A DNA stretch of 55,057 nucleotides from an uncultured Lachnospiraceae bacterium (GTDB taxonomy: Bacteria > Bacillota > Clostridia > Lachnospirales > Lachnospiraceae): positions 1 to 55,057 of the forward strand of contig CAOKPU010000012.1 of assembly GCA_948470755.1 (NCBI GenBank). Direction: 5' to 3'. The position numbers and the translations under genes are program-made. The notes beneath the pieces were generated by a model that was given only the letters and a program-made list of their open reading frames with translations, was not told the origin of the DNA and did not search any database. Positions 3,308 through 23,942 of the stretch are shown in pieces (the first letter of the stretch is position 1; every line of letters begins with the position of its first letter).

Positions 3308-6300
3308 CTAATAATCCAGATCCGTTTTCAATTTCGCTACCGTAAATACAAAGAAATCACTAAGAGCTTCGTTTAATTCCCGTTCAATGTCTTCTGGAGG
3401 CTGATCGGATATCATAACGGAAGCCTGAATCTTATAGTTGGACAGATCCATCTTTTCCGCATCCTGTACTGTCAATACCAAGTCTCTTGTAATCACTCCG
3501 CTTCCCGCATTTCCTGTCCCTTTTTTAATTTCATTCCAGCTAAAATGATAGGTTACATATCGCGAATTCCCAAATTCCCCCGTTGACGAAGGCCCCTTCT
3601 CCAGGTTTTTCTGTACATCGGATGCCGGAGGGCCTGCCAATGCTAATGATAATTGACTGCCTGTATAGGGTTTATAAACCGGCGTCCCGTTCCGGTTCGT
3701 CTTTTCCAGGATATGATAAGTCACCGTATAATATTTATCCGCTATCTGCTGGTTCGTCATTTCATTATTGCTTATAATTCCATTAAAATCCAATTTGAAA
3801 TCAAAATGGATCTCATGCGGCATAGGAGTCTGGCCCTGATAAGTATTGATGCCAAGTTCCATCAAATCTTTTGTTTCCAAAGCACAGGCCATATCCGTTT
3901 TTCTCTTTGCGGCCACGACCTCCTCATAAGTATCCAGCAGCTCCCCTCCTGCAGGATAATCCGCATCTTCTATCCTCAGCAGTTCCAAATGGATCACATA
4001 ATTGCTCTCCGTATAATCCGCCAGATCAGCATTCAAAAAATTCAGTGCGATCTTTAGATGTTCGCTGACCATACCTTCAATATTATTCGCCCCATTGCCG
4101 TCTATGTCTTTTTGGATCATATCTTTTAATGCATCCAAGGAAAATTGAATCTTTCCATCCTTATAGAAATATACGGCGGTGCGGTTCACATAAGAGCCAA
4201 TATTTTCTTCCGGCTTTATTTCTTCCTCCCAAGGTTTTAAACGTATTCCATTGACCGTTACATTGGTATTATCCGGTAGCCTTACCCGGTTGCCATTCAC
4301 ATCGGCAAGGTAAATCCCCACTTCCAGATATTTATTATGATTTGCACTGTCTATTGTGGTGACTTGGCTGTTTAACGCCCTTAGCCAATATTCTATCTCG
4401 CCGGCAATCTCAAAAGTAGCGTCTATCACGACTTCTTCGCCATCCTGTATGCTTCCTTTAACATCGGTTCCATTCTCCTCTCCTTTGAAAACAAATCCAA
4501 GAGTAAGCCCCGGCTGCATCGTCACATTCAGGTCAGTATGTTCTGTCAATGTGGTCCTTTTTTCAATTTCCTCATCCAGCTTTGGCGTTATATGGTAATC
4601 CCTGGCGTTTCTTGTCGTCAGTTTCAATTCCTCGTCTACCAAAGTCGTATCTACAATGATTAAAAATCTTTCCACCGCTACATCCGTATACGGCTGATCC
4701 ATATCTTCCGCCGGAAACTCCTTCCCGTTTTCATAAATATCCTTTCCATCTTCTCCATGAATCGGCTTATTTTTATATTTCGGGGAATCAGGATCCTTGG
4801 GATCTTCCACAAACTGGCTAAACTTGATCAAAGTATCCTTATCTTTCACAGTATAGTAATATACCTTACTGGAATCGCTGACATCGATCAAGGTAAGCCT
4901 TGTGCCTGCCCAGAACTTCGCCGGCACCGCATTGCCGTTCGCATCCATATAAGTAATTCCCAGCGTCTTATCAATGCAGATAGGATTATCTTCCGTGCTG
5001 TATTTGTTCCTCGCGCTACCATAAATATACTCCATATACAATGTATAGGAACTGTCATTGGCAAGAAGAGGATTCTTGCTGACTCCCTCCCTTTTTGCTT
5101 TATCCGCGTTATACACTTCGCCTTCCACCATTTTCAGGTAAGTGTCTATCGTCAGCCTTTCTACTACAAAGACAGGTATCTGCAATACGATTTTTCCCCC
5201 GGTCACTGCCTTATCATCCATCCCGGTATAATCGTCCTGTTTATAAGTAACCGTAAGCAGGGAAAAGGTGCCGCTGCCATCCTCCTTTTCTTCATCGAAC
5301 GCTCTATAGGACAATTCCGCCCGGCCATTTTCCTTCACACTCCACTCGATGCTGTTCTTTCTGTCCGGGTCCATATCTTCTTCTATCGTACCATCCGGAA
5401 GAACCGTCATCGGCTTCACCGATACATCCATGATCCTGCTGATGCCATAATCGTAATCCTCATTTTGACCGCTTTCCCCGCTATTATGGATGCCTCCTGC
5501 CCCCGTCAGCAATGCAAGCACGCTGCCCATTAATTGATCCACGGTGCCATATTGGGTATCAATGACTATCATGGGAAGTTTTTCCTGATTTACCAGCAGC
5601 TTGGAAAGATATCCTTCTTTATTTCTGTATACGTTTTGATAAATCTCTTCCACAGTTTTTCCGTTATCATCCGCTATCCGTAAACGGTATGCATCCAACA
5701 GACGGTCAGCTTTCCCGCTTTTTACCGCCTCCGCGTATTCTTCCAGCTCCGCTTCCGCATTTATCTGGGAAAACAGGCTGTCCCTGCCCATCGGCGCGTC
5801 TTTCCAGGCTTCTGCCGCCGTATTATTTTGCAAATCCGGTTCATAATAGACTACATGTATATTTTCCCTGTAGGAATAAGGGAAAGACAGCATCTGATTC
5901 CCCGGTATGCCTGACAGCGTCCCGCTGCCCACATCCACGACAGGCCTGGTCGCGTTTTCATCCGTATAGATTACATCCGGCATCAGGAAATATGCATGTC
6001 CGCCGCCCTCGTACATTCCTGCGACATTCCCGAAATATCCCGCATATTTGTTCAGATCTTCTTCCGTAAGCTTAGCCGGCAATGCGCCAAACCGGTTTCC
6101 GTCCCACAACCCGGCATCCTTCGTCTCCAGCCCGTCCAGACAGGCTTTTATCTTTTCCGCCTGTTTTTCCGGCAAGGATCCTAACAGATTTTTCTCAGCC
6201 GCCTCGCAATATCCTATCCGGTTATCCTTGATGACGGCATGGTATGCAAATATCTCTTTGCTTAGGTCCAGATAACCAAATACTCCCCCGGCGCTTTGCC

Positions 6301-9300
6301 GTCTTCCATCAGACAGATTATTAGCAAAAATACGATTATCTTCTATAGTAATATGATTTATATTATGGCAATCGTCCGTATTTTCCGAATTGCCCTTTCT
6401 TCCGCCAAAACCTCCGGCCGTACCATATATCTTATGATCTCCAAACCCTGCGATCAAGTTTCCGCTTATTTTTACTTGGTCAAAACATGTCTTTTTGCTC
6501 TCATCTGCTCCAAATACGCCGCCGGCCATATAACCCAGCAGGCGGTTATGGCTGATTGTGAGCGCATGGTCTTTGTTCCCGTCAGACCATACATTCCCAA
6601 TCTGCTGGCTGTTGCAGACAATCCCTGCGATCCCTCCTGCATTTTTTCCATAAATATCACAATGATCCACTGCTATTTTTGCAAGCTTCTGGCTTCCTTT
6701 ATCATTTGCCGCATAGATGCTTCCATAAATCCCGCCGCACCCGGCATTTGCCGCCATATCGGATATGCTTCCATTCGTCCCTATCATACATGCGGCAACC
6801 GATACCTCATCCAATGTCGTATCCGCCCATGTCTCTATGCCTGCATTCCTTGTCCCCGCCTGTCCGATTACTCCGCCGGCTGCGCCGGATCCGCTTTGGA
6901 TCATGCATTCTTCCACCACTGTCTTTTGGAGATTCATCGTTGTCATTGTTGCCAGCCCGACTATTCCGCCGGCCGCCCTCTTAGAGGTTCCGGTCGCACT
7001 GTCTTTTACCCGCTCCTCCTGTCTCCTGTCATCTGAAAGTATATTCATTCCCGATACTTTTGCATCTGTGATAACAACATCGCTCCGGTTGTTATCCGAA
7101 TATGTTTTGCCTTCTACGGAAGCCCCGATCAGGCCTCCTGCATTGGATAAGCGGGATAAAATTTCATACTGGGGCCTTCCGTCCTTCAGATCCCCTCTCA
7201 CCTGTACGCCATCGATACGGATCTTACTCTGCCAATAAAAGCTTCCGATCAGGCCTCCCGCGTGCAGATCGCCCTGAGCCGGGACGCCGCTTCCCGTTTC
7301 CACATCATATGCGGAACGGATATTGGTATTTATAACTTCCGTATCCGTTATCGCGCAAAATGCTTTTCTTTGCAGTTTCCCAATGATCCCTCCTGTGCCA
7401 AACGTGCCATATTCCGTTTCATTTCTGTTTTTGCTCTCTATTATGCTGTCGGATACAGTGATGCCGGAAATCTTAATACACTCTTCATTTTCATTCTTTC
7501 TCCATCCATAATACTCCCCGATAATGCCGCCGGCACTGTCTCCTCCGTCCAAGGCCGCATATCGCACATCCGCTATGCCGGCCTTTCCTGTAACCGTAAG
7601 TTTAATCTGCGTTTCCACAGGATTCCCGTCATGATGTTTCCCTACATGGCCAATCAAGGCGCCGCATCGCCCTCTGGCATTTCCTTCCTGTGTATTACCG
7701 CTCATTCCGGTCCTGTCGCCTTCATTTTCGATGGAAACGTAGTAATCCAGGCTCCCGTTGTCTTCTTCCCCCGCTACCCTGCATCCGATCAGTTCCAGTT
7801 CATAGCCATTCAGGGCATCTGTGTGCCAGGATCCCATTACACCGATAATTCCGCCGCTGCTTCCTCCCACTGCATGGATGGAAACCCCTTTTCCTCCTAG
7901 GCTGCCTTTGTCCGACAACACCTGGCAATCGGTAAATGAATATCTTTTTCCTTTTTCATTATTTGACGGCAAGTTGATCCATGCCGCAATGCCTGCCGCA
8001 TGGCCTTTACTCCATACATCCACATTTTTCACAGTCACGTTGCTGATTGCCCATGGCCGCCGCATCATCCCTATCACCGCCGCCGCCCGGTCCGCCGAAT
8101 AATTCGTCGCGGCATTCCCTTCCATAGAGTTGCTGCTTTTAAACGTCCCCGTCACCACCACATCTTTGATAAAATAGTTATTGACGGCATCCGTATTCAC
8201 CAAATCATTAAACAAGGCGGCCGTATGGATCCCTTTGGCGTAGTCATTCACCATCTCAGCTTTTACAGTAGCCCCGTTTCCATTGAAATTCGCCCTGAAA
8301 TCAGAATAAACCCCGCCTCTCGGCGTTAAATTCACCGTTGCCGAATCTTCCCTGAATACTCTGTAAGTAGCCCCTAGGCCGCGGAAGCCTCTTCCATATA
8401 CCGATAAATCATAATCGACTTCTTTTGCGCCATCATCCGTCAGTGTATAAGTCATGGATGCCCTGACCGCATTCGTTACCGCATTCAGCCTGCTTCTATA
8501 ACCTGACGGAGTACTATCCATTGTCCGGTAAAAGCCATTGCCCATACTGCTATCGCTGTCATCCGCACTGACCCCGTCAAAAGAAAAATATTGATATATA
8601 TATGGATACCAATATACATTGTCATCCTTCCTTGTTGCTCTTGTATATTCGGAGGTCAGGCCCGTAACATTTCCAATCTCAGTATAATCCGCTTTTCGGC
8701 AGGAAGCTTTCTTATCATATCCTCCGCCATCGTAGTATACCGAAAACGAATCCGAATTGATCGCCATGGACACAAGCTGAAGCTGGGCCCCGTTTGCGAT
8801 ATTGCAGATATAATCCCCTCCGCCGGATATGATCGGTATGCTTCCCTTTTCCCCGGCCATCCCGGCAGCGGTAATCACATCGTAAGTGTTGGAAAAAGGC
8901 AATGCATCATGTCTGTAAATGCCGGGAATATGCGTACTGCCATGTGGAAGCGTTGCATCATTCGATAACCCCCCTTCATAAACAACAAATCCATTCTCCA
9001 CTTTTCCCACAATTCCCGACACATAAGGGTAATCCGACAGATCCGGCATCCCGGATTCCATATGTTCGTTGCTGCCTCTTAACAATCCCCAGCAAAACCC
9101 TGACAGATTATCTTCCGACAGATTGCGCAGGATCAACGACCCTTGCTGCAAGGTCCCTACATAACCTCCTACTGCAGCATCCCTGCCTGCTCCCGCCGCA
9201 TCCACCGCAATCAGGCTTTCTGTCGTCACATTATCTATAATATTATCCCCTCCCAGAATGCACGCTATGGCGCTGCCTCCGCTATTCCCCACACGGGCCA

Positions 9301-12300
9301 CATTCGTCAGCCGGTCATTGTCATTCTCCGGCACTTCCGGGCTGATGATCTTTATATCTTTTATAACGGCGCCTTTGGCAAACTGAATGAAACCATAATA
9401 ATTGCTTGTATTCCCCTTTCTTTTATGAGGCAAGGTAATAACCGGGTATGTCCCGTTGTTTTCTTCGCCGGCAATAACGCCGGAAAAAGGAAATGTTTCC
9501 GTTCCCAACCCTACAAAGCTTTGCACGATCGCCGCATCCCCGGATCCTCTCAGTTCCGAAAAGTCAATATCTTTTGCAACTACATAATAAGCTTTCCTAA
9601 GCTCTTCCTGTGTGGGAAAACCGCTGTTCCCATAAGTCCTTAGCGTACCCTTGGTATGTGTCTTGGTGCAGATCCCATCCCCGGTCGTATTCTCTTTGTC
9701 CCCCGGCTTCCTGATCTGCCAGCCCTCTAAGTATTGCTGATTATTCCCATACATCAGATAATAAGACAAGGCCAGGAGCTGCTTTGCGCTGTCAATCCGA
9801 TACGGATCTTCATAGATGCCGCAGCCCTCCGTAATGGATACATTCTTAGGGTTTACCTGGATATTTTTGGTTCCGTCATGGCTGGTACATACATAAGGCA
9901 GATATACATTCCAATCGGCAATTGCCGCCACCAGATCCGCCTCTCCTTCCGTATTCCAATATTCCACTCCATTTTCAAGTTCACGCCCTACCGTTACATA
10001 CCCGCCTATGGTTTTATAATTGTTATCCCCATGGATCCCTCCTGTAAAAGGATCCCTTGTGGAATTTGAAGTATCAGCCATATCCATCCCCTTATAAGCC
10101 TCTTCCGTGAACAGATACCTGACCCTCCCTTTGTTTTCCTGCGTGTTATCGGTATATTGATGGATATCGATAAAAGAAGCAAACCGGAAGATTCCTTCGC
10201 TTTTATCTGCCGGATTCCTATCCGGATTCTTACCCCCTATTTTCACATTGGTAAAATCCAGCTTCAAATTCTTTGCCCATGTATTCCCCACTCTGCCAAT
10301 CAGAGCCGCCGCCGCGTATTTCTGCCTTGAGCTGCCGTTATAGCCTTTTGTCCGGATCCAACTGATATCTATATCGGAATTATCCTCCACCGCTCCGATC
10401 AACAAGCCATATCCATGAGCCGCGCCTCCATAATTATTCATATATAAATCTTCTAACTGAATACGATAGATTTGATTTGTCCCTTTGATCGACATACTGA
10501 ATAAAGCCCCGGAGTTCTCTCCAAGACGAGTGATTTTTCCTGCCAGCGTCAGGAAATCCTCATCGCCTTCCACACGCATCCCCCCATTGGGACTAAGCAG
10601 CAGGCCTCCCTGGAGCATATAATTTTCCCTCCACACGCTTTCGCCTTCCGCCAGGCCGGGGGAATCTATTTTATCCCCGTGGAATATGATTTTTGCCTTT
10701 CCTTCTCCTTTTACCACACAGTTTTCTACCGGAGTAGGGTAGTAGCTTCTCCTGTTTAAGTCGATTTCCCCGCTTAATGTAATGTCCTCATTTTTCGCCG
10801 GCACTATCCCATTTATAAAATAAGGCTTTAAATATCTGCGGATAGAATCATTCATATATTGGCTCAAATGCCAGATCATGATTTGATCCCCATCTGTCAG
10901 TTTCATCGCCGCCCCATCCAGCTCCCTGCCCGCCATAAAAGAATCGCCGTCTGCCAGGGAAGATCCAAATAAGTTATAGTAATATCTCGCATTATCCGAT
11001 CCTGCATCATTTTTCAGCAAATGACTCCTATATGCGACAAAATCAGAGCCAAAAGCCGGGCTAATAATATTGACGATCCCTCCCATCGTATGGTTTCTGT
11101 TATTTTTATCCTTACCAATATTATTACCTACGATTTCGCTGAATTTCCCAGTTTCGCCCGTTATTCTTACTTTTGCATTATTGGCGGTATAATTGATATT
11201 TTTTGCCCCCACATCCTGGCCCGCAATCTGATAGCCTTCCAATTCTATCAACGCCTTATGCCCATTATGGAACAAAAGCCCGTTATGATTACTTTCTCCC
11301 GGCGTAGCATAAAAAGACCCATTTTGGATCTTCACATCTTTTAACTGGATCCTTCCTGTCACTGTATGTACCAGCCCGCCGTAATTGCCTCCTGTGGAAT
11401 AGGCAGGGCCGTCATCTGCAGTACCTCCCTCCCCTACCGTCAGCCCATTGATGGAATAATTGCTTTTATCCGGGGCAATACCGTACCACTTCCACCCAAG
11501 GAAACCGCCTGTATCCTCCCTATCCTGTATCGCCATTTCGGCGTCATTGGTTACCGTAATATTTTTCAAAGCCAGTATGACCCTGTCGCCGCCCTTATCC
11601 AATGATTCATTTTCCGTATTGATCTGCGTTATCATACCGCTTACAAAACGGCTGCTGGAAACAATCTCCTCTGCCAGCTCCAGATCCTGTATTTTAATCA
11701 CAGGAACAGACCCCAGGTCCGCTTCATATTTGGCAAGCAGCCCCCCGCCATATTGTTTTTCTCCGGCAGCGCCTGTACTCTGGTTGATTTCCAGCCTACC
11801 GCCAATCCGGCTTTGCGTCACGCTTAACTCCACATCTCCTCCTGCGCGGTACTGGGCAAACATGCCTCCATATAAATACGGCGACGCCGCCTGGCTGCCG
11901 GTCATAGTAAGCCGCATATCCACATTATGGACTTTTATATTGCCGGAAGCATATGCGCAAAGCCCTGCTGCAGCTTCCCTTGCATAATGGATTTCCCTTT
12001 CAAGCGTCAGATTCCGGAACTCTGCCCCCTCGCCCGCATAAGGGAACAGGGAAAGATAAGATTGATAAGTGGTACATATGCCTAGACGGATGACTGCCTC
12101 CCCCGCCCCAATCAGCTTTCCGGTAAAGCGTTCCGCATCCGCCTTCCCCCTGTCATTACGATTCAAAGAGTAAATTCCCGATTCCTCCAGATCAAAGCTG
12201 CCATCCGCCGGATTTTCCAGCGAATAATCGGATGCAAGCAAGATCCCTTTATTTGCGCCCGGGAAACAATTTGCCGCGAATCTCCCCTCTGAATTCAGCA

Positions 12301-14779
12301 TAATTGCCAGACGGATAATATCCGCTTCCGTATCCAAAGTCCATGCGTTCCCGGAACCCGTAACCGTTCCCTTTACCGCTTTTTCCACATAGGAAATAAG
12401 AGGGCTTCCTTCCCCCCAACTGCCGTTTTTATAAACCCCTCCATAAGAACCGATATCATCTACCCATGCTTTTCCTTCCGTTCGTTGGTAATTTCCATTT
12501 TCTTCAAAGTAAACCAGGGCTTCTTCCTGCTTCCCTGCGATATAGCCTCTTTCCGGGCTGGAACCGGTAATTTCAAGCCCCCTTACATCGATATTCCTAT
12601 CCAGGGCCGCCATACTGTTCACACGGATGTTCCCAAATATTCCTCCCTGGATCTTTTGATCCGCCCGCGGATCCAATGTGGAACTTATCGACGCATTCGT
12701 CACTTTAACAACGGAACGTTTTGTCCCGTCCCCAACGCTTCCTATCATTCCCCCGATTACCGCGGCCTGTCCCACTCCTCCTTTGACCGATGCATGATAA
12801 ATCTCAATATACTCTCCTTTTGCATCCCCAATCATACCTCCGGCAGCGCCTGAAGCCGAAACCGTCCCTTCCACTTGCATACATTGGAAATTATCCGCTT
12901 CCCCCGGCAGCCCTATACGGAAATTGGATCCTTCCACGCGGCCCACTGCCCCGCCCGCACATGAACCTCCGCTTACATTGCCGGTTACCGTAATATGATG
13001 GAGAAGATGCCAGTCCGCGCCATTGGCATTCCCTACATCTTTTCCTTTAAAGTATCCTATCACCCCGCCTGCGTCTTTGGCGCTTGCAACAACATCCGCA
13101 GATACCTTTACATTTCCCAGGCTTATTTCCGTATCGATACATTCTCCCACCAGACCGCCTGCCGAATTCCCCTTCACGCTTCCTGTTACCGAAAATGACC
13201 GGGCATTTCCGGCCGTCTGGACCACCTTTCCTTTTTCTATCCTGCCGGCCAGACCTCCGCTTATCCCGCTACCGCCTACCTGGACCATCTTCTCGTCATC
13301 CGTCCCGTCCACATAGAGGACGCTTCCGTCTTCCATGCTTCCTGCCAGCATACCCGCGCATACTGTCCCCGTCACAGTCCCCATAGGGAAGACATCCGTT
13401 TTATGAACCTCTACAATGCCCTTGATCTTTCCTGCAAGACCGCCCGCATAGCCCCCGCTCACATCCGCCGGGGCATCCGCCGCCCCTCCTTTTCCCGGAA
13501 TGCCAAGTTCTATTGTACTGCTTGCTTCATAGCAAAGCTTCACTGGGGTATTCCCCTTATTTTCCACTTCCCCGAACAATATTCCTGCGGCCCCTCCCGG
13601 GTTTGATACCGTTCCCGATACCGACACTTCGGAAATCTTTACCGTATCCGCCATGCCCGATGCGGCCACATGGGCTGCAATAATCCCTGTCGGGCTGGTC
13701 CCATCCCCCTTGATATCGGCGCTGATCTGCAGCTTGGACACAGTAGCCCCTGTTGCCGCATAATTCAATAAAGGCGTCGCAGTACGAAAACGCAATGTGC
13801 CATAATCATAGCTGGATGTTAATTCCCCTTTAAACGGCGCTTTATCGCTCCCAATCCCATGAAAAAAACCTTTAAGCGGAGTCAGATCCCATGTCCTCCC
13901 CCCGTCTTCCCCCGGACTCCCGTCTGCCTGTTCGCGATGGATAAACTGTATGGAATAGCCTTCAAAATCAAATCCCCCGTCGCTTTCACCCAGTTTCTGC
14001 AAAGCCATTAGATCCGCCAGATTTCTCACCAAAAACTTTTTCTCTTTATAATTTTTCAGTTCAGCCTGGTTTGTAGGCAGTTCCGATACCTCATCGCCAA
14101 ACCGGTAAGTCTGGGCATATAAAGAGATATCCATGATTTTCCGGAATTCCTCTACTGTCAGATCCCACTCATCCAAAGTTTCTTTTTCTACCCCGCAAAT
14201 CAGGCACTGGTATTTATCCGGATGCCCTTCCTCCTGTATCAGTTCAAAAATATGTACTCCATACCCATTCTCGCCTTTGCAGTCTAAACGTTCCGCCTCG
14301 CAGGACTGGCACACCGGTATGATCTCCCCTTCTGCCCGGTCCCATGTATGTTTATGATAAACCGCCCCTTCCCGGATAAAGGTTTCTGCGTTTATGATTC
14401 TTTTGCAAAATACACATTGATAAACTATCGTACCGTCCTGCGCCTGAACTTCTTCATATTCATGCACTTTACCGGGAAGGCATGAATCCGTTCCCGGGAC
14501 ATTTCCGCTGATCGTATCTTTTTTATCCGCCCCTCCATCTTCCGGCAGCCCTTCATCCTCCGGCACATCTTTGCCTTCCCCGCCGTCCGGCAGCATCCCT
14601 TCCTGATATGCAGCCTCCTTTGGGATTATCCCCTCTTTTGGAGCATCACCCAATAAACCTTCCTCACTGATTTCGTTTTTTGCAGCAAATACAGAATACA
14701 TATCCTGATTGCTTAAAAATACCGCACCGGCAAGCCATATTGCTAATACTCTGCACATTCTCCCATTAGACTTTCTCAT
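3308..14779 (-). CDS. Giant secreted GLUG-type repeat surface protein (3,823 aa)
   Basis: This single uninterrupted frame encodes a predicted extracellular protein. It begins with a signal peptide (hydrophobic core about residues 11-22, probable cleavage near the Ala-Ala at 32-33). An acidic linker and a cysteine-rich segment with three CxxC pairs (122-125, 157-160, 192-195) follow, the latter resembling a structural zinc site. Most of the protein to about residue 2,750 is built from irregular repeats with the core GG-x-x-G (for example AGGLAG, AGGVIGYF, AGGLIGSF, AGGVFG). These are typical of GLUG-like and related beta-helix adhesins. The last ~1,000 residues are acidic, apparently globular Ig-like material. 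There is no LPxTG motif, S-layer homology domain or C-terminal membrane segment, so anchoring is unexplained. It is the last gene of a leftward train that includes a SipW-type peptidase and several secreted subunits. The function is unknown; adhesion or matrix formation is inferred. Confidence 0.88.
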   Translation of the reverse strand: MRKSNGRMCRVLAIWLAGAVFLSNQDMYSVFAAKNEISEEGLLGDAPKEGIIPKEAAYQEGMLPDGGEGKDVPEDEGLPEDGGADKKDTISGNVPGTDSCLPGKVHEYEEVQAQDGTIVYQCVFCKRIINAETFIREGAVYHKHTWDRAEGEIIPVCQSCEAERLDCKGENGYGVHIFELIQEEGHPDKYQCLICGVEKETLDEWDLTVEEFRKIMDISLYAQTYRFGDEVSELPTNQAELKNYKEKKFLVRNLADLMALQKLGESDGGFDFEGYSIQFIHREQADGSPGEDGGRTWDLTPLKGFFHGIGSDKAPFKGELTSSYDYGTLRFRTATPLLNYAATGATVSKLQISADIKGDGTSPTGIIAAHVAASGMADTVKISEVSVSGTVSNPGGAAGILFGEVENKGNTPVKLCYEASSTIELGIPGKGGAADAPADVSGGYAGGLAGKIKGIVEVHKTDVFPMGTVTGTVCAGMLAGSMEDGSVLYVDGTDDEKMVQVGGSGISGGLAGRIEKGKVVQTAGNARSFSVTGSVKGNSAGGLVGECIDTEISLGNVKVSADVVASAKDAGGVIGYFKGKDVGNANGADWHLLHHITVTGNVSGGSCAGGAVGRVEGSNFRIGLPGEADNFQCMQVEGTVSASGAAGGMIGDAKGEYIEIYHASVKGGVGQAAVIGGMIGSVGDGTKRSVVKVTNASISSTLDPRADQKIQGGIFGNIRVNSMAALDRNIDVRGLEITGSSPERGYIAGKQEEALVYFEENGNYQRTEGKAWVDDIGSYGGVYKNGSWGEGSPLISYVEKAVKGTVTGSGNAWTLDTEADIIRLAIMLNSEGRFAANCFPGANKGILLASDYSLENPADGSFDLEESGIYSLNRNDRGKADAERFTGKLIGAGEAVIRLGICTTYQSYLSLFPYAGEGAEFRNLTLEREIHYAREAAAGLCAYASGNIKVHNVDMRLTMTGSQAASPYLYGGMFAQYRAGGDVELSVTQSRIGGRLEINQSTGAAGEKQYGGGLLAKYEADLGSVPVIKIQDLELAEEIVSSSRFVSGMITQINTENESLDKGGDRVILALKNITVTNDAEMAIQDREDTGGFLGWKWYGIAPDKSNYSINGLTVGEGGTADDGPAYSTGGNYGGLVHTVTGRIQLKDVKIQNGSFYATPGESNHNGLLFHNGHKALIELEGYQIAGQDVGAKNINYTANNAKVRITGETGKFSEIVGNNIGKDKNNRNHTMGGIVNIISPAFGSDFVAYRSHLLKNDAGSDNARYYYNLFGSSLADGDSFMAGRELDGAAMKLTDGDQIMIWHLSQYMNDSIRRYLKPYFINGIVPAKNEDITLSGEIDLNRRSYYPTPVENCVVKGEGKAKIIFHGDKIDSPGLAEGESVWRENYMLQGGLLLSPNGGMRVEGDEDFLTLAGKITRLGENSGALFSMSIKGTNQIYRIQLEDLYMNNYGGAAHGYGLLIGAVEDNSDIDISWIRTKGYNGSSRQKYAAAALIGRVGNTWAKNLKLDFTNVKIGGKNPDRNPADKSEGIFRFASFIDIHQYTDNTQENKGRVRYLFTEEAYKGMDMADTSNSTRDPFTGGIHGDNNYKTIGGYVTVGRELENGVEYWNTEGEADLVAAIADWNVYLPYVCTSHDGTKNIQVNPKNVSITEGCGIYEDPYRIDSAKQLLALSYYLMYGNNQQYLEGWQIRKPGDKENTTGDGICTKTHTKGTLRTYGNSGFPTQEELRKAYYVVAKDIDFSELRGSGDAAIVQSFVGLGTETFPFSGVIAGEENNGTYPVITLPHKRKGNTSNYYGFIQFAKGAVIKDIKIISPEVPENDNDRLTNVARVGNSGGSAIACILGGDNIIDNVTTESLIAVDAAGAGRDAAVGGYVGTLQQGSLILRNLSEDNLSGFCWGLLRGSNEHMESGMPDLSDYPYVSGIVGKVENGFVVYEGGLSNDATLPHGSTHIPGIYRHDALPFSNTYDVITAAGMAGEKGSIPIISGGGDYICNIANGAQLQLVSMAINSDSFSVYYDGGGYDKKASCRKADYTEIGNVTGLTSEYTRATRKDDNVYWYPYIYQYFSFDGVSADDSDSSMGNGFYRTMDSTPSGYRSRLNAVTNAVRASMTYTLTDDGAKEVDYDLSVYGRGFRGLGATYRVFREDSATVNLTPRGGVYSDFRANFNGNGATVKAEMVNDYAKGIHTAALFNDLVNTDAVNNYFIKDVVVTGTFKSSNSMEGNAATNYSADRAAAVIGMMRRPWAISNVTVKNVDVWSKGHAAGIAAWINLPSNNEKGKRYSFTDCQVLSDKGSLGGKGVSIHAVGGSSGGIIGVMGSWHTDALNGYELELIGCRVAGEEDNGSLDYYVSIENEGDRTGMSGNTQEGNARGRCGALIGHVGKHHDGNPVETQIKLTVTGKAGIADVRYAALDGGDSAGGIIGEYYGWRKNENEECIKISGITVSDSIIESKNRNETEYGTFGTGGIIGKLQRKAFCAITDTEVINTNIRSAYDVETGSGVPAQGDLHAGGLIGSFYWQSKIRIDGVQVRGDLKDGRPQYEILSRLSNAGGLIGASVEGKTYSDNNRSDVVITDAKVSGMNILSDDRRQEERVKDSATGTSKRAAGGIVGLATMTTMNLQKTVVEECMIQSGSGAAGGVIGQAGTRNAGIETWADTTLDEVSVAACMIGTNGSISDMAANAGCGGIYGSIYAANDKGSQKLAKIAVDHCDIYGKNAGGIAGIVCNSQQIGNVWSDGNKDHALTISHNRLLGYMAGGVFGADESKKTCFDQVKISGNLIAGFGDHKIYGTAGGFGGRKGNSENTDDCHNINHITIEDNRIFANNLSDGRRQSAGGVFGYLDLSKEIFAYHAVIKDNRIGYCEAAEKNLLGSLPEKQAEKIKACLDGLETKDAGLWDGNRFGALPAKLTEEDLNKYAGYFGNVAGMYEGGGHAYFLMPDVIYTDENATRPVVDVGSGTLSGIPGNQMLSFPYSYRENIHVVYYEPDLQNNTAAEAWKDAPMGRDSLFSQINAEAELEEYAEAVKSGKADRLLDAYRLRIADDNGKTVEEIYQNVYRNKEGYLSKLLVNQEKLPMIVIDTQYGTVDQLMGSVLALLTGAGGIHNSGESGQNEDYDYGISRIMDVSVKPMTVLPDGTIEEDMDPDRKNSIEWSVKENGRAELSYRAFDEEKEDGSGTFSLLTVTYKQDDYTGMDDKAVTGGKIVLQIPVFVVERLTIDTYLKMVEGEVYNADKAKREGVSKNPLLANDSSYTLYMEYIYGSARNKYSTEDNPICIDKTLGITYMDANGNAVPAKFWAGTRLTLIDVSDSSKVYYYTVKDKDTLIKFSQFVEDPKDPDSPKYKNKPIHGEDGKDIYENGKEFPAEDMDQPYTDVAVERFLIIVDTTLVDEELKLTTRNARDYHITPKLDEEIEKRTTLTEHTDLNVTMQPGLTLGFVFKGEENGTDVKGSIQDGEEVVIDATFEIAGEIEYWLRALNSQVTTIDSANHNKYLEVGIYLADVNGNRVRLPDNTNVTVNGIRLKPWEEEIKPEENIGSYVNRTAVYFYKDGKIQFSLDALKDMIQKDIDGNGANNIEGMVSEHLKIALNFLNADLADYTESNYVIHLELLRIEDADYPAGGELLDTYEEVVAAKRKTDMACALETKDLMELGINTYQGQTPMPHEIHFDFKLDFNGIISNNEMTNQQIADKYYTVTYHILEKTNRNGTPVYKPYTGSQLSLALAGPPASDVQKNLEKGPSSTGEFGNSRYVTYHFSWNEIKKGTGNAGSGVITRDLVLTVQDAEKMDLSNYKIQASVMISDQPPEDIERELNEALSDFFVFTVAKLKTDLDY

Positions 14780-16676: not shown

Positions 16677-16748
16677 TTCATCCCCGCTTTCCTGCATCCG
16701 CAATTCTTAAATCATATAGTCCGCGTCCAAAGGATGCCCGCATATATT

Positions 16749-17646: not shown

Positions 17647-18192
17647 TTAAGACTTTAATCTCATCAATTCCCTGACCAAGCCGATCACGCAAGACGTAAA
17701 GCAAAGAATGACCGGCAATAAAACCACTACAAAGTAAAAATCCTGTCCTGCCAGCTTATCCAGAAAACGGGATAATATATCGCCATACGGTAGCTTTCCT
17801 ACATATTTCCCGGCAATATCTTCCTCCGATACGGCATACTCATCCGTCCATGTATTATTATCGCCTTTGGTAAAATAGATAGTCTCGCCTGTCACATAAT
17901 CTCTTACAATATCGCAAATCCTATGCGTATTATATGCCCCTCCCAAGGCAGGATCCCCCGAAACAAAAGTGATGATATCCCCCACAGCCAGTTCTTCTTT
18001 TTCTATTTCCTTAATAATAATGCAGTCCCCTCCGGAAAATACCGGTTCCATGCTGTCCGTCACCACGCGCAGCAGACGATAGCCAAAAAAATCCGGAGCC
18101 TTATGATAAGCCGCCGACACGATAAAATAACAAAGATACAAAACAATCCCTATAAATATTAAATTCCCTGTTCTTGATATGACTTTCTTCAT
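17647..18192 (-). CDS. SipW-type (ER-like) signal peptidase I
   Basis: This 181-residue membrane protease removes signal peptides from a small set of dedicated substrates. It has an N-terminal membrane segment (about 10-27), the catalytic serine in TDSMEP (Ser47), and the conserved region NTHRI with histidine at position 90. In SipW/ER-type peptidases this histidine replaces the lysine of ordinary bacterial enzymes. A TKGDNN box (108-113) provides the acidic residue, and a C-terminal membrane segment spans about 150-172. Positions 47, 90 and 111 correspond well to the Ser/His/Asp set reported for Bacillus SipW. Its start codon overlaps the stop of the DUF2357 gene by one base (TAATG), so the two are translationally coupled. 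The TAWY/TAWF proteins encoded on both sides are the expected substrates. Confidence 0.93.
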   Translation of the reverse strand: MKKVISRTGNLIFIGIVLYLCYFIVSAAYHKAPDFFGYRLLRVVTDSMEPVFSGGDCIIIKEIEKEELAVGDIITFVSGDPALGGAYNTHRICDIVRDYVTGETIYFTKGDNNTWTDEYAVSEEDIAGKYVGKLPYGDILSRFLDKLAGQDFYFVVVLLPVILCFTSCVIGLVRELMRLKS

Positions 18193-19508
18193 TACTTACC
18201 GGACTTACGCGCTGCCGCCCTCTCCTGCCGTTTCCGGCGCAGCAGCTTTCTTCTCCCTTTCATTTTATCCGCCCTTCCATCTTCTTCCTTTAAAACAATA
18301 TTTTTTTCCGTCTCCACATCTTCCAACGTCAATTCCCTGTTTCCCTGCTGAGCCTGATTTCTGCGGATTTCCCTCATTTTCTGTCTTTGTATCCTCTCAA
18401 TCTCCGCCAGCTCCACTTTCCGTTTCATCTGCAGATCCGACAATTCCTTAATCACCAGTTTCTTCAACGCCGCATCGCTCAGGTTCGTTTTGCGGACTAT
18501 CTCTTCCAACATCTGCCTGATCTGCTTTGCATCCATTTCCCTCTCTTTCCTCGGACGGTCGATGTCTATGTCATTGGCAAACTTCATATTATTATGGATC
18601 ATGGAATAATCCCTGATAATAGTATTATAAATGTCTCTTTCAAACTGTCTGGATATGCCCGGCTCCTGCTTAACAATATTTACTTTATACCCTACTCTGT
18701 TATATGAGTGTATAAAATTCCATAACTTATGACACGCCTTGTAATCCTTGTTTTTTCCGATGACGTTTGTCTTTACGATAGGATGGGAAACTGCCGGATA
18801 TCGTTTCATCATACCGATAAATTCTGTTGCCGCCAACATATTTACTTGTTGGTGTATCCTTATGATGCGGGCAAATATGTTATTATTTTCCTTTTCATTA
18901 TTCACATCCGTCTGCTTTTCCTGTATCTTTACAGACAAATTATACTCTACGACCTCCGTATAATTATCCACGCGGGACTCCACTTCAAAAAAAGTCCCGA
19001 TTTCATCCTTGCTGGCGTCAAATATAACATTAAAACGCTTATTTACAAAATATTGCAGCTCCGCCATCAATGTACAGATAAAGCGGTTTTCATAAATATT
19101 AATACTCTCTTCTTTATATACATTCAATATCCTGCTGGGGATAACCGTTCCATCCTCCTTATATTCATCAATCAGATCGCTATGCTGTAAAAGATGGCGG
19201 ATAGACTCTGTCGTGATATTCCGCGCCATCGCCACATTCACCACTTCCCGCTCTTCCTCGATAAATTTCCTCGGATGGATGATGACATAATGCAAAGACG
19301 GCAAAGCTTCTTCTATTTCCCTTACCCATTCCTCATCAATGCTTTTTACCAGCTTTGCATTGGAAAATTTACAATAATTGCTGGAATTTTCCAGCAGATT
19401 ATAGAAATAATTATAAAATTTGTCGCCTTTAAGCTGTTCCTGCATTTCCTCCCGGTTCATATTTTCATATGTTTCCTGTATATAACCGGTGCTTTCCACA
19501 TTTGCCAT
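18192..19508 (-). CDS. DUF2357/McrC-like protein lacking a recognisable nuclease domain
   Basis: The 438-residue, probably cytoplasmic protein contains the short signature IYENRFI (about 138-144) in a context (SRILNVYKEESINIYENRF) typical of DUF2357, the N-terminal part of McrC-like partners of McrB ATPases. I do not see the PD-(D/E)xK nuclease that McrC carries after this region. Instead the C-terminal 130 residues are charged and helical, ending in a strongly basic tail rich in Arg and Lys. It is encoded directly after an McrB-like AAA+ gene, as expected for a partner. Unusually, the next gene is a signal peptidase whose start overlaps this stop codon. I infer an adaptor or scaffold for the AAA+ ring rather than a restriction enzyme. 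The DUF2357 call rests on motif recognition only. Confidence 0.8.
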   Translation of the reverse strand: MANVESTGYIQETYENMNREEMQEQLKGDKFYNYFYNLLENSSNYCKFSNAKLVKSIDEEWVREIEEALPSLHYVIIHPRKFIEEEREVVNVAMARNITTESIRHLLQHSDLIDEYKEDGTVIPSRILNVYKEESINIYENRFICTLMAELQYFVNKRFNVIFDASKDEIGTFFEVESRVDNYTEVVEYNLSVKIQEKQTDVNNEKENNNIFARIIRIHQQVNMLAATEFIGMMKRYPAVSHPIVKTNVIGKNKDYKACHKLWNFIHSYNRVGYKVNIVKQEPGISRQFERDIYNTIIRDYSMIHNNMKFANDIDIDRPRKEREMDAKQIRQMLEEIVRKTNLSDAALKKLVIKELSDLQMKRKVELAEIERIQRQKMREIRRNQAQQGNRELTLEDVETEKNIVLKEEDGRADKMKGRRKLLRRKRQERAAARKSGK

Positions 19509-19605: not shown

Positions 19606-21210
19606 TCATCCGGCGCTCATCCTCTTAAGCCTAGCAAGGTAAGCTTTGCTGATCTTCATATTCCCGCTTCCAAACTGCCGGTCAAGATATACCGCCAGGC
19701 CATCCAGTTCATCCCTGATAAATCCCAATCCCAAAGACTCGAATTTCCGCAATATTTTTTTGGAGAACATAAAATCAATCCCGTCAATCTCCGTGCCGCC
19801 GCACGCCACATAACAAGGGACGAATTCTTTCAACTGGCGCATAATCCTGTTCCCGAAAGTCAGCCGGAAATGTTCGATCAGATATTTGTCCAGCTTGTCC
19901 AGAAGGATGAGGTTTTCTTCCGAAATAGGATATTTTTTCTTTGCGTCCTCATACAATCTTTCCAAATGTTTATAACTTAAGCGCTGCGGTTCCGTATCCG
20001 GCGCCTCAAAAAATTCGGCACGGTCATCCAAATCGATCGGGATCGCGCGGTCATATACTTTATCCGCCACGGCAAATGTAGAGTCATCATTGTTAATCGT
20101 CCCCACATACCATATATTGTTGGGGATCCATATTTTCCCTTCCTTCATCAGCGCCGGGTCGTTTGCCGCCGTATTGGATACCACCGTAACAAACCGCTCC
20201 TCCTCCCTGGGCAATTCCAGGATAGAAAGCATTTCCGCAAAATAATACTCCACTCTTGCGATATTCATTTCATCCAAGATCACGATTCTGGGATCTTCAT
20301 AATAATGCGCTTCATACAAAGTCTTTAAAAAATCCGTTTCCGTATACTTCTTCGTAAAATCATTGTAATAACCAAACAGTTCTGTCCTGTCCCTCCATGA
20401 AGGCTGTACGGAACAGATCACGCTGGGATTTCCGATAAACTGGCCAAAGGCATATGGCAGGGATGTTTTCCCCGTTCCCGATATTCCCTGTAAGATCAGC
20501 ATTTTCGCCGCGCCAAAGGAAGCAAATACCTGCTTCATCACTTCCAGTTCATAATACAGCCCTAACTTGCTCGCGGCATAATTACGGAAATTAATGCAGA
20601 CTTCCTCCAGCGATATTGCATTGTTATAAACCGGAGCCTCATATCCCGGGTCGGAATAATATAAATCCACCGCCGACAGCCTTGGAAATCTTTTTTCTTT
20701 TGTCTCAATCACTTCGGCTGCTTCTTCTTCCTGCAAGACGGCTTGCTCCCCTTCCGATCCCGGCTCCTCCTGAGCCAAACCCCTTTCCATAATTTCATTA
20801 GGGGTATCCAATAAATCCGGGTTTACCTCCATGCCAAGTTCCGATATTTTCATGGCAAGGATTTTATCTTTTTCATAATTTGCTTTCATAATTTCACGCT
20901 TTAATGTAACAACTTCATCTTTCATTTTTTCATATTCCGCTACCGGAACTTTGAAACGGAAAACCACCTTCAGCCCTTTATAAATCAAGAATACAAATAA
21001 AGACAGAAGAAGCAGCAGCAGAATATGTACAATCGTGGCGGCCACCCAGCCGAGCGGGGATAAATCGCCCCTGTAAGTATTAAACAGTTCCATATAATAA
21101 CGTATATCGAAAATCCCTATAATGGCATCTTTTATGGCGGTAAGCACATTCCAGATATGGCCGAAGATACTCCTCATAAAATTATAAAAATAGTAAAAAA
21201 ATGCGTTCAT
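19606..21210 (-). CDS. Membrane-tethered McrB-like AAA+ ATPase
   Basis: The 534-residue product has an N-terminal hydrophobic region, a strong membrane segment (about 56-84), a coiled, acidic linker (about 90-170) and an AAA+ module. Walker A is GISGTGKTS (242-250) and Walker B is IVILDEMN (309-316) followed by ARVEYYF. The sensor region reads GTINNDDST, aligning with the McrB hallmark GTMNTADRS but losing its arginine, and YDRAIPIDL follows. This places it in the McrB branch that pairs with DUF2357/McrC proteins, the next gene downstream. McrB proteins are normally soluble, so membrane tethering is notable. Embedded between secreted-protein genes and next to a SipW-type peptidase, it is more likely to power assembly or export at the membrane than to act on DNA (inference). 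Confidence 0.88.
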   Translation of the reverse strand: MNAFFYYFYNFMRSIFGHIWNVLTAIKDAIIGIFDIRYYMELFNTYRGDLSPLGWVAATIVHILLLLLLSLFVFLIYKGLKVVFRFKVPVAEYEKMKDEVVTLKREIMKANYEKDKILAMKISELGMEVNPDLLDTPNEIMERGLAQEEPGSEGEQAVLQEEEAAEVIETKEKRFPRLSAVDLYYSDPGYEAPVYNNAISLEEVCINFRNYAASKLGLYYELEVMKQVFASFGAAKMLILQGISGTGKTSLPYAFGQFIGNPSVICSVQPSWRDRTELFGYYNDFTKKYTETDFLKTLYEAHYYEDPRIVILDEMNIARVEYYFAEMLSILELPREEERFVTVVSNTAANDPALMKEGKIWIPNNIWYVGTINNDDSTFAVADKVYDRAIPIDLDDRAEFFEAPDTEPQRLSYKHLERLYEDAKKKYPISEENLILLDKLDKYLIEHFRLTFGNRIMRQLKEFVPCYVACGGTEIDGIDFMFSKKILRKFESLGLGFIRDELDGLAVYLDRQFGSGNMKISKAYLARLKRMSAG

Positions 21211-21263
21211 CTTAATATCCTTGCCTTTCTTTCAGTCTTCCGTCCCCTGACGCAGTCCTCTAT

Positions 21264-22229
21264 TTATCTCCCGCCTTTTACTTCCGAAGAAATAAACTGT
21301 ATATTTCCTACAATCTCATCCAGCTCATTAGAATTGGTGCAGTCTTCATCTGTCCCCTCCATCCAGACGCGCATCGTCACCTTTACATCCTGCTCCTCTT
21401 CGATCACAAACAGCTTTTCTGAGTTCCCGTCTTCACCACCGACAAAACTCCCGTCATCCGTCTGTTGCAGGGTTTCATAAGTCCCATAAGTCCCTCTTAC
21501 ATGATCAATCGCCTTTTCCGTATCACCATTATGCCTGTTGCTGTTCGGTTCCCATATGACAATATCCTGCCCCTCTACTTCAAAGGAAACCCTAATGGAA
21601 TTAGCCGCCGTGTCGCCTGGGACCGTACCCGCAGCCCCGTCTGCCTGCCGTATTGAGCAGCCGCTGATCTCCTCCCCGTCCTGTTCCGGGCCGAGCAGCA
21701 TGATTTCATATTTTTTCATGGCTCCCTTTGTCACTCTGTCCCCTCTGCTGTTTTTTAGACTTCCCGCTTTCAGATAAAAGGTCTTTTCATAGACGTACTG
21801 CTGGTTCAGCTCGTCCAAATCCGTAATCTCCTTTACATCCGTTACTGCCTTCCCTGTATAGACGGGTGCATAAAACGTCTGTCCGTCGGCAGTCGTCACC
21901 GGATTGAGCAACACTTCCTCCATAGGGAATTTCTGCGTTGCCTCCTTTAGATCCAATTCCTCATCATATTCCCCCGGGCCGCCTCCTAAGTCGTCGGCTA
22001 TCAACAAGTCGCCTGCCGCAGCGGCAGAAAGGGCAAGGTTCAATACCTTCGGCTTGTTGTTCATGGTAAACCAGGCATAGGTTGCCGTGGACAAAACCGC
22101 AATATACAACAGGCACATCAAAAGCCTTGCTTTCAACCCCTGCTTTTCTTTTCCCTCTTCCGGCGCCATATTGTCCGTCTTTCTTTTTTCTTTTAATTTA
22201 CCCGTTACTGCTTTTTCCCTCTTCTCCAT
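21264..22229 (-). CDS. SipW-dependent-type secreted protein with TYAWF signal
   Basis: A long, charged cytoplasmic N-terminus is followed by a membrane segment ending in TYAWFTMNN (about residues 50-58 from the chosen start), the best SipW/TasA-type signal in this window. The mature part is acidic, and near its C-terminus has the pattern VWMEGTDEDC, which is shared with the next protein (IWLEGEDPEC). The two are therefore probably related. I chose the ATG at 22229 because AGAGGG precedes it by a normal distance; an upstream in-frame ATG at 22265 is possible. The gene lies 53 bases upstream of the McrB-like gene in the same train. I infer an extracellular structural subunit. No enzymatic motif is visible. 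Confidence 0.85.
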   Translation of the reverse strand: MEKREKAVTGKLKEKRKTDNMAPEEGKEKQGLKARLLMCLLYIAVLSTATYAWFTMNNKPKVLNLALSAAAAGDLLIADDLGGGPGEYDEELDLKEATQKFPMEEVLLNPVTTADGQTFYAPVYTGKAVTDVKEITDLDELNQQYVYEKTFYLKAGSLKNSRGDRVTKGAMKKYEIMLLGPEQDGEEISGCSIRQADGAAGTVPGDTAANSIRVSFEVEGQDIVIWEPNSNRHNGDTEKAIDHVRGTYGTYETLQQTDDGSFVGGEDGNSEKLFVIEEEQDVKVTMRVWMEGTDEDCTNSNELDEIVGNIQFISSEVKGGR

Positions 22230-22318
22230 TTGCCGTCCCTCTTTCGATTCTCCTATCCTTCCCATCTTTTTTCCGCTTCCGAACCGTTTTCAAACCTCCG
22301 GGTCTTCCGGAACGCCCC

Positions 22319-23230
22319 TTAATAAGTAAAACTCATTGCCAATTCTATTTCCCCGCCGATGATCGCATCCACGCATTCGGGATCTTCTCCCTCCAGCCAG
22401 ATGACTACGGTAAATTTATCCATGCCGTCATGCTCAAAATCCTGCCGCAGCCCTGTGCAGACTGTTTTCTCCGAAGCAAAGGGGACGGTTTTTAATTGAT
22501 AAATCCCGTCCAGGCCGTCAAACTCATGATAGTCAATAACTTCTTGCGTAATATAACCGGGGTTTCTGTCGGAAATAACCGTCTGCTGCAGCTCCGGATG
22601 AAGCGCATACTCCTGAAACGGAAATTCAAACTCGGAATATTGGCACTCGGGATGCCCCTCTTTATTTGCCTTTGCAAAGATTTCCTGTTTCCCATTATGG
22701 AACAACATGATCCATGCCGCTTCTTCTACCCCCTGCGTTTTATTTCTTATAAATAAAGTATATCTGTAATCCTTGGTTTCCCCCGTCAGGTTCTTTACAT
22801 AAAATGTGTAAGCGAATACATCATCGCTATGATGTTCCCCATCAATATCCATGACATCTTCGTCAATATTATAGATATTCACGTTGGTAGCGTCCACCAA
22901 CGCGTCTGCGCGCAACGTAATCAGCCTTTCGTCAAAATTCGGTATCTCAGACAGATAAAAACCGTCCCTCGCCATTTTTCTGTCCACTTTTACTACGAAC
23001 TCTCCGGCATTCGTATAAAATGCCGCCATCAGGAAGGCCACGGATAAGATAAATAAAATAATGGCTATCGTCTGCTTTGCCGCATGGATACGGAAGAGGC
23101 TTCGGAATAAGCTGATCCCCCCCATATACCAATGCTTAAACCGATTGAGAAGATCCACCCTGCTTATTAAAGGACGTCTGATCCGGTCCCCTTTCGGTTT
23201 TTTAGCAGGAAAACGTTTTTCCTTTTTCAT
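22319..23230 (-). CDS. Membrane-anchored extracellular protein, paralogue of the neighbouring TYAWF protein
   Basis: The 303-residue product has a very basic cytoplasmic N-terminus (about 50 residues), one membrane segment (about 52-70) ending in MAAFYTNAGEF, and an Ig-like extracytoplasmic domain. The sequence FAYTFYVKNLTGE, followed later by VVIWLEGEDPEC, is typical of secreted proteins in SipW loci. The second motif is shared with the protein encoded next (VWMEGTDEDC). The AAFY end of the membrane segment is a weak version of the TAWF cleavage region, so processing is uncertain. The gene follows the HD-GYP gene by 58 bases. It may be an accessory or initiating subunit of a surface fibre (inference). 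Confidence 0.83.
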   Translation of the reverse strand: MKKEKRFPAKKPKGDRIRRPLISRVDLLNRFKHWYMGGISLFRSLFRIHAAKQTIAIILFILSVAFLMAAFYTNAGEFVVKVDRKMARDGFYLSEIPNFDERLITLRADALVDATNVNIYNIDEDVMDIDGEHHSDDVFAYTFYVKNLTGETKDYRYTLFIRNKTQGVEEAAWIMLFHNGKQEIFAKANKEGHPECQYSEFEFPFQEYALHPELQQTVISDRNPGYITQEVIDYHEFDGLDGIYQLKTVPFASEKTVCTGLRQDFEHDGMDKFTVVIWLEGEDPECVDAIIGGEIELAMSFTY

Positions 23231-23288
23231 ACAACTCCCCCTGCCCTCTTGTTATCACGGACTTCTTTTCTTTTGCTAAACCGTATCC

Positions 23289-23942
23289 CTAAAATCTGTC
23301 GATGCATTCTTTAAATATCCCCACTAATTCCGGCTGAAACTGCCCCCCTGCTTCTCCTTCAATGATCCGGACAGCCTCTTCTCTCGTTGTCTGTTTCTTC
23401 TTGTACGGCTTCCAACTCACGATCCCATCATAGGTATCTGCAATTGCACAAATCCTTGCCCCTATAGGGATATCTTCCCCCTTTTTTCCTTCCGGATAGC
23501 CCCCGCCGTCAAACCTTTCATGATGATATACGGCAATGTTTTGCCACTGTTCCATGATCCCATCGGGAAATGGCTGTATATAGATGCCCTTCACCGCCTT
23601 ACGCGCATTTACCGTATGGTCTTTAATAATCTGTTTTTCCTCTTCGCTCAATCCTTCCACTTTATTAAAAATCTCAAATGGTATAAAATGCCTGCCGATA
23701 TCATGCAGCGCAAAAATTTCCTCGCTATACCGTCCAAACTCTTCCCCCATCTGCTCTCTGACGTTTCCAATCCCCTTCTCAACCATATAACGGTAAAGGA
23801 TATCCGCATATTTCCCTACCCGCTTCATATGTATCCTGACATTCCTTGGCAACGTACTGCATAAGGCGTCCAATGTTGGAAAACATCCGATTTCCGAACT
23901 TTTTATCAGGTTTTTATCCGTTGTTATCAAATAAACCTCCAT
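23289..23942 (-). CDS. HD-GYP domain protein, probable c-di-GMP phosphodiesterase
   Basis: The 217-residue cytoplasmic protein is almost entirely one HD-GYP domain. The metal- and substrate-binding set is complete: His38, His80-Asp81 (HDIGR in place of the common HDIGK), His109, His140-His141 (HHERFDGGGYP), and the ADTYD box (about 168-172). It has no receiver or sensor domain, only ~35 extra N-terminal residues. Such proteins degrade c-di-GMP. It is the first gene of the leftward train that leads into the SipW/McrB-like surface locus, and a strong promoter with a ~110-base leader lies upstream. This links second-messenger turnover to surface-protein output. The HDIGK-to-HDIGR change is conservative and activity is expected. 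Confidence 0.9.
   Translation of the reverse strand: MEVYLITTDKNLIKSSEIGCFPTLDALCSTLPRNVRIHMKRVGKYADILYRYMVEKGIGNVREQMGEEFGRYSEEIFALHDIGRHFIPFEIFNKVEGLSEEEKQIIKDHTVNARKAVKGIYIQPFPDGIMEQWQNIAVYHHERFDGGGYPEGKKGEDIPIGARICAIADTYDGIVSWKPYKKKQTTREEAVRIIEGEAGGQFQPELVGIFKECIDRF

Follow-up and report, generated by a model that had tools for sequence, protein, structure and literature searches.

An uncultured Lachnospiraceae bacterium (GenBank assembly GCA_948470755.1) carries on contig CAOKPU010000012.1, within the stretch of 55,057 nucleotides that was analysed as a whole (hereafter the window), ten close-packed minus-strand open reading frames (ORFs) at positions 3308-23942 which, judged by their sequences, make up a locus of the CoCoPALM type. 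At its centre stands a membrane-anchored McrB-like AAA+ protein followed by a DUF2357 protein, and this nuclease-free McrBC motor probably serves the biogenesis of a surface structure. In the order of transcription the genes encode an HD-GYP protein, the exported proteins P9 and P8, the AAA+ protein, the DUF2357 protein, a SipW-like signal peptidase, the exported proteins P4, P3 and P2 and a giant secreted repeat protein. A preliminary description of the window had read a leftward locus of ten genes in close order, and this is borne out by ORFs, strand and gaps: from 5' to 3' the intergenic distances are 58, 53, 53, 97, -1, 97, 45, 24 and 28 bases, and 20181 of the 20635 bases of the locus are coding.

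McrBC is a textbook restriction system. The pairing of McrB and McrC homologs with a signal peptidase was named “CoCoPALM” in an eLife article of 2024, the pertinent passages of which leave it for later work (PMC11090510). The features listed in those passages are an McrB-like domain whose NxD motif is usually followed by E or D, an adjacent McrC homolog and a protein of a signal-peptidase family, with an FtsB-like transmembrane (TM) segment plus coiled coil on the McrB homolog and a coiled coil on the McrC homolog. The locus shares with this description the McrB-like protein of NxD type, in which a TM segment lies at the N-terminus, the adjacent DUF2357 gene and the signal-peptidase gene; as a difference, the same passages name no substrates, giant protein or HD-GYP protein, and they report no tested function. 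The opinion of the preliminary description that no described system unites an McrB/McrC pair with a SipW-type peptidase was therefore mistaken. Among the literature matches listed there was no follow-up on CoCoPALM or on the pairing of McrB and DUF2357 proteins with a signal peptidase, thus the locus, which fits the published NxD, McrC and signal-peptidase traits, represents a kind of system that is named but unstudied.

The AAA+ and DUF2357 proteins and the signal peptidase

The AAA+ protein (19606..21210, minus strand, 534 residues) has a single hydrophobic segment at residues 49-86, a Walker A motif (GISGTGKT), a Walker B motif (DEMN) and an NxD motif (NNDD). In its motif GTINNDDST the residues N373, N374 and D375 are invariant in 29 aligned sequences, which gives the NxD signature with a following D. 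When the profile of these 29 sequences was compared with PDB, E. coli McrB was the sole match at E<=0.01 (6hz4, 6ut6, 7vsr; best E 3.5e-5), the NCBIfam McrB model reached E 1e-4, which is below its cut-off, and Pfam gave a weak AAA_5 match (E 1e-3). For the FtsB-like and coiled-coil traits the signal is not clear-cut: a DivIC/FtsB-family model matched one of the 29 AAA+ members, weakly (E 0.034), and a crude heptad test on 10 AAA+ and 8 DUF2357 rows placed the former not above shuffles and the latter no better than shuffles (lowest shuffle fraction 0.08).

With McrBC Type IV restriction the locus has in common the match of the AAA+ protein to E. coli McrB structures and the DUF2357 domain of McrC, yet it differs in carrying NxD instead of NxxD and a membrane anchor, and no DNA-specificity domain or PD-(D/E)xK nuclease was found; the N-terminus of the AAA+ protein is the TM segment, and no DNA-binding Pfam domain was detected on this protein at E<=0.1. 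CoCoNuT systems have the NxD motif as well and are distinguished by nuclease tandem or RNA-targeting domains, whereas Pfam and NCBIfam searches of the ten proteins (E<=0.1) returned no nuclease, HEPN or other toxic domain and no RNA-binding domain.

The DUF2357 protein (18192..19508, minus strand, 438 residues; PF09823, E 1.2e-9) corresponds to the N-domain of McrC and has a basic tail with a net charge of +13, its last 58 residues being hardly conserved. PF09823 was matched in 31 of 31 aligned sequences, and the profile built from this protein family had no meaningful match in PDB. That no nuclease is visible in it, as had been remarked before, agrees with all searches: no nuclease family in Pfam matched the window's protein at E<=0.1, none occurred among the first 25 of the 39 families matching any DUF2357 member, and in the 31 rows a conservation of 90% is reached by no D, E or K beyond residue 264. 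It is possible that the sequence keeps an inactive nuclease remnant. There is no DNA-modification gene among the ten genes, and the nearest methyltransferase match (PF13679, 30210-31511) lies more than 6 kb from the locus, among ATP synthase genes. A hidden PD-(D/E)xK nuclease together with a nearby modification gene, which according to the preliminary description would speak against its view, was thus not encountered.

The third gene of this core (17647..18192, minus strand) encodes a SipW/ER-type signal peptidase of 181 residues, matching TIGR02228 over its cut-off (E 5e-25). The Bacillus SipW model gave a comparable E value (6e-25) and 87.9 bits, below its cut-off of 190. Ser47 in the motif SMEP and His90 in THR correspond to the Ser/His pair typical of SipW-type peptidases, and the assignment made in the preliminary description is upheld by the TIGR02228 match and both motifs. 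Across relatives, a pattern for the serine that proved too strict matched 17 of 54 sequences, and in the listed rows this residue was identified by visual inspection.

Conservation and linkage

The species-genome collection was scanned with the AAA+ protein in a pattern-based manner, which recovers a relative only if any of six short peptides is present in it, and 42 loci were obtained, two of them (L038 and L040) not of the CoCoPALM type. In the readable loci of this type the DUF2357 gene follows the AAA+ gene in 38 of 38 cases and the SipW gene follows the DUF2357 gene in 36 of 37. The close Lachnospiraceae-type loci, where readable, hold the HD gene (30/30), P9 (30/30), P8 (31/31), P3 (29/29) and P2 (29/29), and the order HD-P9-P8-AAA-DUF2357-SipW-P4-P3-P2 recurs in them; since this order is found again in about 30 related loci, the cluster is more than chance. 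Loci from Erysipelotrichaceae and Bacilli keep the AAA+, DUF2357 and SipW genes, with a weak P8 match in most and a weak P9 match in some. Most of the divergent family loci have no HD gene at the head, L087 having one and L084 a weak partial match.

Linkage was counted in two genome sets. Of the 250 family genomes, 32 contain a match to the AAA+ profile: 19 at E <1e-120, taken as the CoCoPALM type, and 13 at 1e-36 or weaker; among 398 genomes of the phylum there are 55 with a match, and the CoCoPALM type occurs in the window's own genome only. A SipW gene over cut-off lies within 10 kb of the AAA+ gene in 16 of the 19 CoCoPALM-type cases versus 0 of 40 other McrB-like loci. The 39 genomes behind these 40 control loci comprise 10 of the 13 family genomes with weaker matches (G239, G078 and G176, with E >1e-7, being set aside) and 29 of the 54 phylum genomes with a match other than the window's own. 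SipW is present elsewhere in the genome in 10 of the 39. The three misses are G147, where a contig break intervenes and which was scored as a miss though SipW follows DUF2357 on another contig, and G073 and G189, which form the sister lineage treated below. All 29 control loci whose motifs were examined (L048-L076, of the 40) are NxD-type, so the contrast in SipW lies largely within the NxD branch. Occurrence of the pair mainly away from SipW genes, which the preliminary description regarded as damaging to its proposal, is the opposite of what was seen.

The protein P9 follows the same distribution, being present in each of the 17 family genomes with both a CoCoPALM-type AAA+ protein and SipW and absent from the 233 others (Fisher p 1e-26, uncorrected for relatedness). 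In 15 of the 17 the match shares a contig with the AAA+ gene and is no more than 10 kb from it, and in G211 the distance is about 12 kb. The 250-genome set was taken as common to the AAA+ and P9 searches, as judged from genome handles, with non-matching genomes listed in part; it overlaps with the species-collection scan, and counts of the two were not added together. The CoCoPALM type, defined by profile score, comes out as one group of 48 with a support of 99/98 in a tree built from 82 rows. Six duplicate loci (L043-L047, L088), the fragment L042 and the second AAA+ copy of L078 were omitted from the tree, and placements on its long branches (L038, L040, L066 and others) are unsure.

Variants of the arrangement were also noticed. 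Five loci (L079, L080, L084, L085, L086) have two SipW genes flanking the AAA-DUF2357 pair, one on each side, and L079 holds six P8-like genes. Shortly before P9, three Bacilli/Erysipelotrichaceae loci encode mutually similar small membrane proteins with a charged tail, of 125 residues in L033 (6957-7334) and L035 (6960-7337) and of 135 residues in L032 (6684-7091); as candidates for SipW they were rejected as false matches and kept outside the counts.

Sister lineage and outgroup

In the tree the two sister genomes, G073 and G189 (loci L077 and L078), stand as a pair beside the main group with a support of 100/99. In each of them a DUF2357 gene lies between two genes for membrane-anchored AAA+ proteins, and neither genome contains a SipW over cut-off. 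In G073 the AAA+ and DUF2357 genes are followed by single-pass membrane proteins, of which one carries an AgI/II C2 domain (E 9e-8) and another matches MBG weakly. The single-pass membrane proteins that follow in G189 are one that matches AgI/II C2 weakly and one of 852 residues, in which a transglutaminase domain (E 2e-22) is joined by weak AgI/II C2, MBG and YDG matches. The AgI/II, MBG and transglutaminase domains of these proteins would lie outside the cell. In the Paenibacillus outgroup L038, the placement of which is unsure, the AAA+ protein has no membrane segment and its neighbours are VWA, PP2C and helicase genes. By this comparison, membrane anchoring of the AAA+ protein and its partnership with exported, tethered proteins coincide on the branch of CoCoPALM and its sister, SipW being confined to one part of it. 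This link between anchor and partnership, seen on the sister side in two genomes only, is the main addition of the present analysis.

Exported proteins and the giant repeat protein

Five proteins of the locus carry a hydrophobic segment with a SipW-type signal. P9 (22319..23230, minus strand, 303 residues) has a long conserved N-terminus predicted to be cytoplasmic, one TM segment (48-76) and a C-terminal WLEGEDPEC motif; P8 (21264..22265, minus, 333 residues) has the signal TYAWF, P4 (16749..17549, minus, 266 residues) TTAWY, P3 (15936..16703, minus, 255 residues) TAAWY and P2 (14808..15911, minus, 367 residues) [A/S]KYY. The signals of P8, P4 and P3 close the hydrophobic segment, and the corresponding segments end with AAFYT in P9 and SKYYK in P2; the at least three TAWY/TAWF-type signals reported earlier were found again, and the other two signals were added to them. 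Outside the signals P8 and P9 are homologous (hhalign probability 96.8, E 3e-10). For P2, P3, P4 and the PF12389-type proteins of other loci hhalign gave no convincing relation to P8/P9 or to each other, the weak match of P8 to P4 (probability 10) covering 25 residues directly after the signal. Residues 21-40 of P9 show a mean majority identity of 0.74 in 26 rows, which is near the best later blocks of the protein (0.75-0.77).

Dedicated SipW peptidases adjoining exported proteins are known from SipW-TasA/TapA of B. subtilis and sipW-bsaABCRSD of C. perfringens, and in this the locus resembles them. According to published work, secretion and polymerisation of BsaA require SipW (PMC7395162), TasA is assembled by donor-strand exchange (PMC9674648), and B. 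cereus has a CapP-assisted, sortase-independent filament system (PMC13082335). The substrates of the SipW/TasA matrix operons are of the PF12389 type, in contrast to the locus, where none is detectable by sequence. PF12389 (TasA/camelysin) has no match in the genome, and among the P8 members 1 of 38 matched it (E 0.0099). The designation of the locus as TasA-like, used in the preliminary description, was accordingly abandoned at the sequence level, profile comparison also being negative.

The giant protein (3308..14779, minus strand, 3823 residues) contains 16 [GA]G-hydrophobic-hydrophobic-G motifs versus a mean of 0.43 (maximum 3) in 500 shuffles. Its earlier characterisation as GLUG-type holds for the glycine-rich motifs but not for the family, as Pfam GLUG gave no match at E<=0.1. 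By eye its N-terminus looks like an ordinary Sec signal; no hydrophobic segment passed the threshold used, and the last 120 residues contain no LPXTG-like motif. Of 8 complete giants, 6 share a conserved C-terminal end, which reads DFFVFTVAKLKTD in the window, and L094 and L096 depart from it. As a relative of the exported proteins this C-terminus was rejected, hhalign giving no relation.

Proposed role and alternative explanations

We infer the place of action of the pair, its handling of substrates, the product and the contribution of the HD-GYP protein as follows. P9, P8, P4, P3 and P2 would be exported by the Sec route with their SipW-type signals and stay tethered by the N-terminal helix, until some are set free by the dedicated SipW-like peptidase. 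On the cytoplasmic face, the AAA+ ring would be kept in place by a TM helix of its own and activated by the DUF2357 protein, and it would spend nucleoside triphosphate (GTP by homology) on extracting, ordering or releasing the tethered subunits, for which the conserved cytoplasmic tail of P9 is a candidate handle. Released subunits and the giant protein probably come together outside the cell as a fibre or coat, and the HD-GYP protein may tune expression or activity via cyclic dinucleotides. As described in PMC11090510, the DUF2357 domain of McrC activates McrB hexamers and McrC forms a stalk contacting McrB in the hexamer. Threading of the substrate through the pore is because of this stalk not the sole option, and pulling or gating by conformational cycles may be just as likely. 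The secretion or fibre-assembly machine powered by the AAA+ ring, as proposed in the preliminary description, is consistent with the linkage data.

Several observations weigh against a motor for surface assembly. Nowhere in the main text of PMC7395162, on C. perfringens sipW-bsa, do the words AAA, McrB or ATPase appear, thus SipW fibres do not generally depend on such a motor. By sequence P8 and P9 have no match among PDB chains (the search covered these two of the exported proteins), and hhalign found no match of the five exported proteins or the giant's C-terminus to PF12389-type proteins. The AAA+ domain matches the PADLOC candidate defence model PDC-M26A (E 1e-39). One locus, L011, has no SipW after DUF2357, and in G009 the P9 match is weak and on another contig. 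In addition, the linkage counts ignore kinship, and both the P9 profile and the AAA+ profile derive from loci in which the two occur together.

Alternatively, the pair may be a regulator of SipW activity, membrane quality control or precursor turnover, the fibre assembling outside by itself, which is rather unlikely and still the strongest competitor. SipW fibres elsewhere have been described without such a motor (by the main-text wording of PMC7395162 and in the abstract of PMC9674648), the pair is cytoplasmic save for one TM helix, as its predicted orientation has it, and an HD-GYP gene heads the operon. Nothing in the analysis separates this reading from the assembly motor; the sister lineage without SipW argues against SipW itself as the target of the pair. 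An anti-phage system of the McrBC/CoCoNuT kind with a membrane effector, in which the AAA+/DUF2357 pair senses infection, perhaps from phage attachment to the surface proteins, and sets off envelope damage or shutdown, would be a somewhat weaker candidate. It retains some weight because the AAA+ protein has the NxD motif of the branch which, in the relevant passages of PMC11090510, holds the CoCoNuTs, predicted restriction systems, and because of the PDC-M26A match over the AAA+ domain; the VWA and PP2C genes of the outgroup L038 also recall TerY-type conflict systems. On the other hand, no nuclease, HEPN or other toxic domain was matched in the ten proteins at E<=0.1, the AAA+ protein is the sole PADLOC match at E<=0.01 among the nine locus proteins given (the giant was left out), and the neighbours are largely housekeeping genes such as those for ATP synthase, UPRTase and Sua5. 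Five exported proteins together with a secreted protein of 3823 residues are hard to fit with immunity. Searches of 72,556 plasmids and 50,697 phages found no record spanning 80% of the AAA+ protein, partial matches numbering 267 and 2, respectively, and a mobile origin of the locus was rejected on these same grounds. Insertion of an McrBC-like pair beside an unrelated SipW operon by chance has next to no probability, being refuted by the conserved gene order, the co-occurrence of P9 and the AAA+ protein (17 versus 0/233), the linkage of SipW (16/19 versus 0/40) and the clade support of 99/98.

The motor for surface assembly thus stays the preferred reading. A wider generalisation is more tentative and should be held with reserve: there may be a class of membrane-anchored nuclease-free McrBC motors domesticated for surface assembly of tethered beta-rich proteins, with SipW as an accessory and the SipW-free sister lineage as a second branch. 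If the proposal is true, a restriction motor has been turned into an envelope machine, as would be shown by a nuclease-free branch tied to exported proteins, and Gram-positive gut bacteria gain an energised route of surface assembly unlike sortase or type IV pilus systems. For a system so far only named, the co-occurrence of P9 with the AAA+ protein and the SipW-free sister lineage provide specific testable partners.

HD-GYP gene, leader and surroundings of the locus

The first gene of the operon (23289..23942, minus strand) encodes an HD-GYP phosphodiesterase-like protein of 217 residues (PF13487, E 2e-27) with both the HDIG and the HHERFDGGGYP motif. In the 32 HD matches scoring >100 the pattern HHE..[DN]G.GYP is present throughout (32/32) and HDIG in 24. 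Past the giant gene, and convergent with it, lies a GGDEF-EAL gene (1719-3257, plus strand), so that two enzymes of the cyclic-di-GMP type bracket the locus.

Upstream of the operon a promoter-like site (TTGACA-17-TATTAT; 24060..24088, minus strand) agrees with the consensus at 11 of 12 positions; it comes from a consensus scan alone, which found 33 sites in the region versus 20.9 in shuffles. Between this site and the first gene a leader hairpin, GCCGAA...TTCGGC with a T-run (23974..23997, minus strand), is kept in the three closest relatives (L001-L003). Of 29 upstream regions, 4 show its pattern, that of the window being one of them, and the other 25 (one duplicate) do not. No Rfam family reached its gathering score in the window, and the L001 leader gave one match at chance level. 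The hairpin following a promoter-like site is a possible attenuator.

The locus is flanked by the GGDEF-EAL and PRPP synthetase-like genes on one side and by QueT and SNF-type transporter genes on the other. Adjoining the methyltransferase gene, an ORF of 845 residues (27660-30197, minus strand) has no Pfam or PADLOC match at E<=0.01. Farther away, a protein of 925 residues with a weak beta-helix trimerisation match (48523-51300, minus strand) overlaps by a few bases the gene of an MMPL transporter (51297-53396, minus strand), and the two are possibly a further exported-protein pair.

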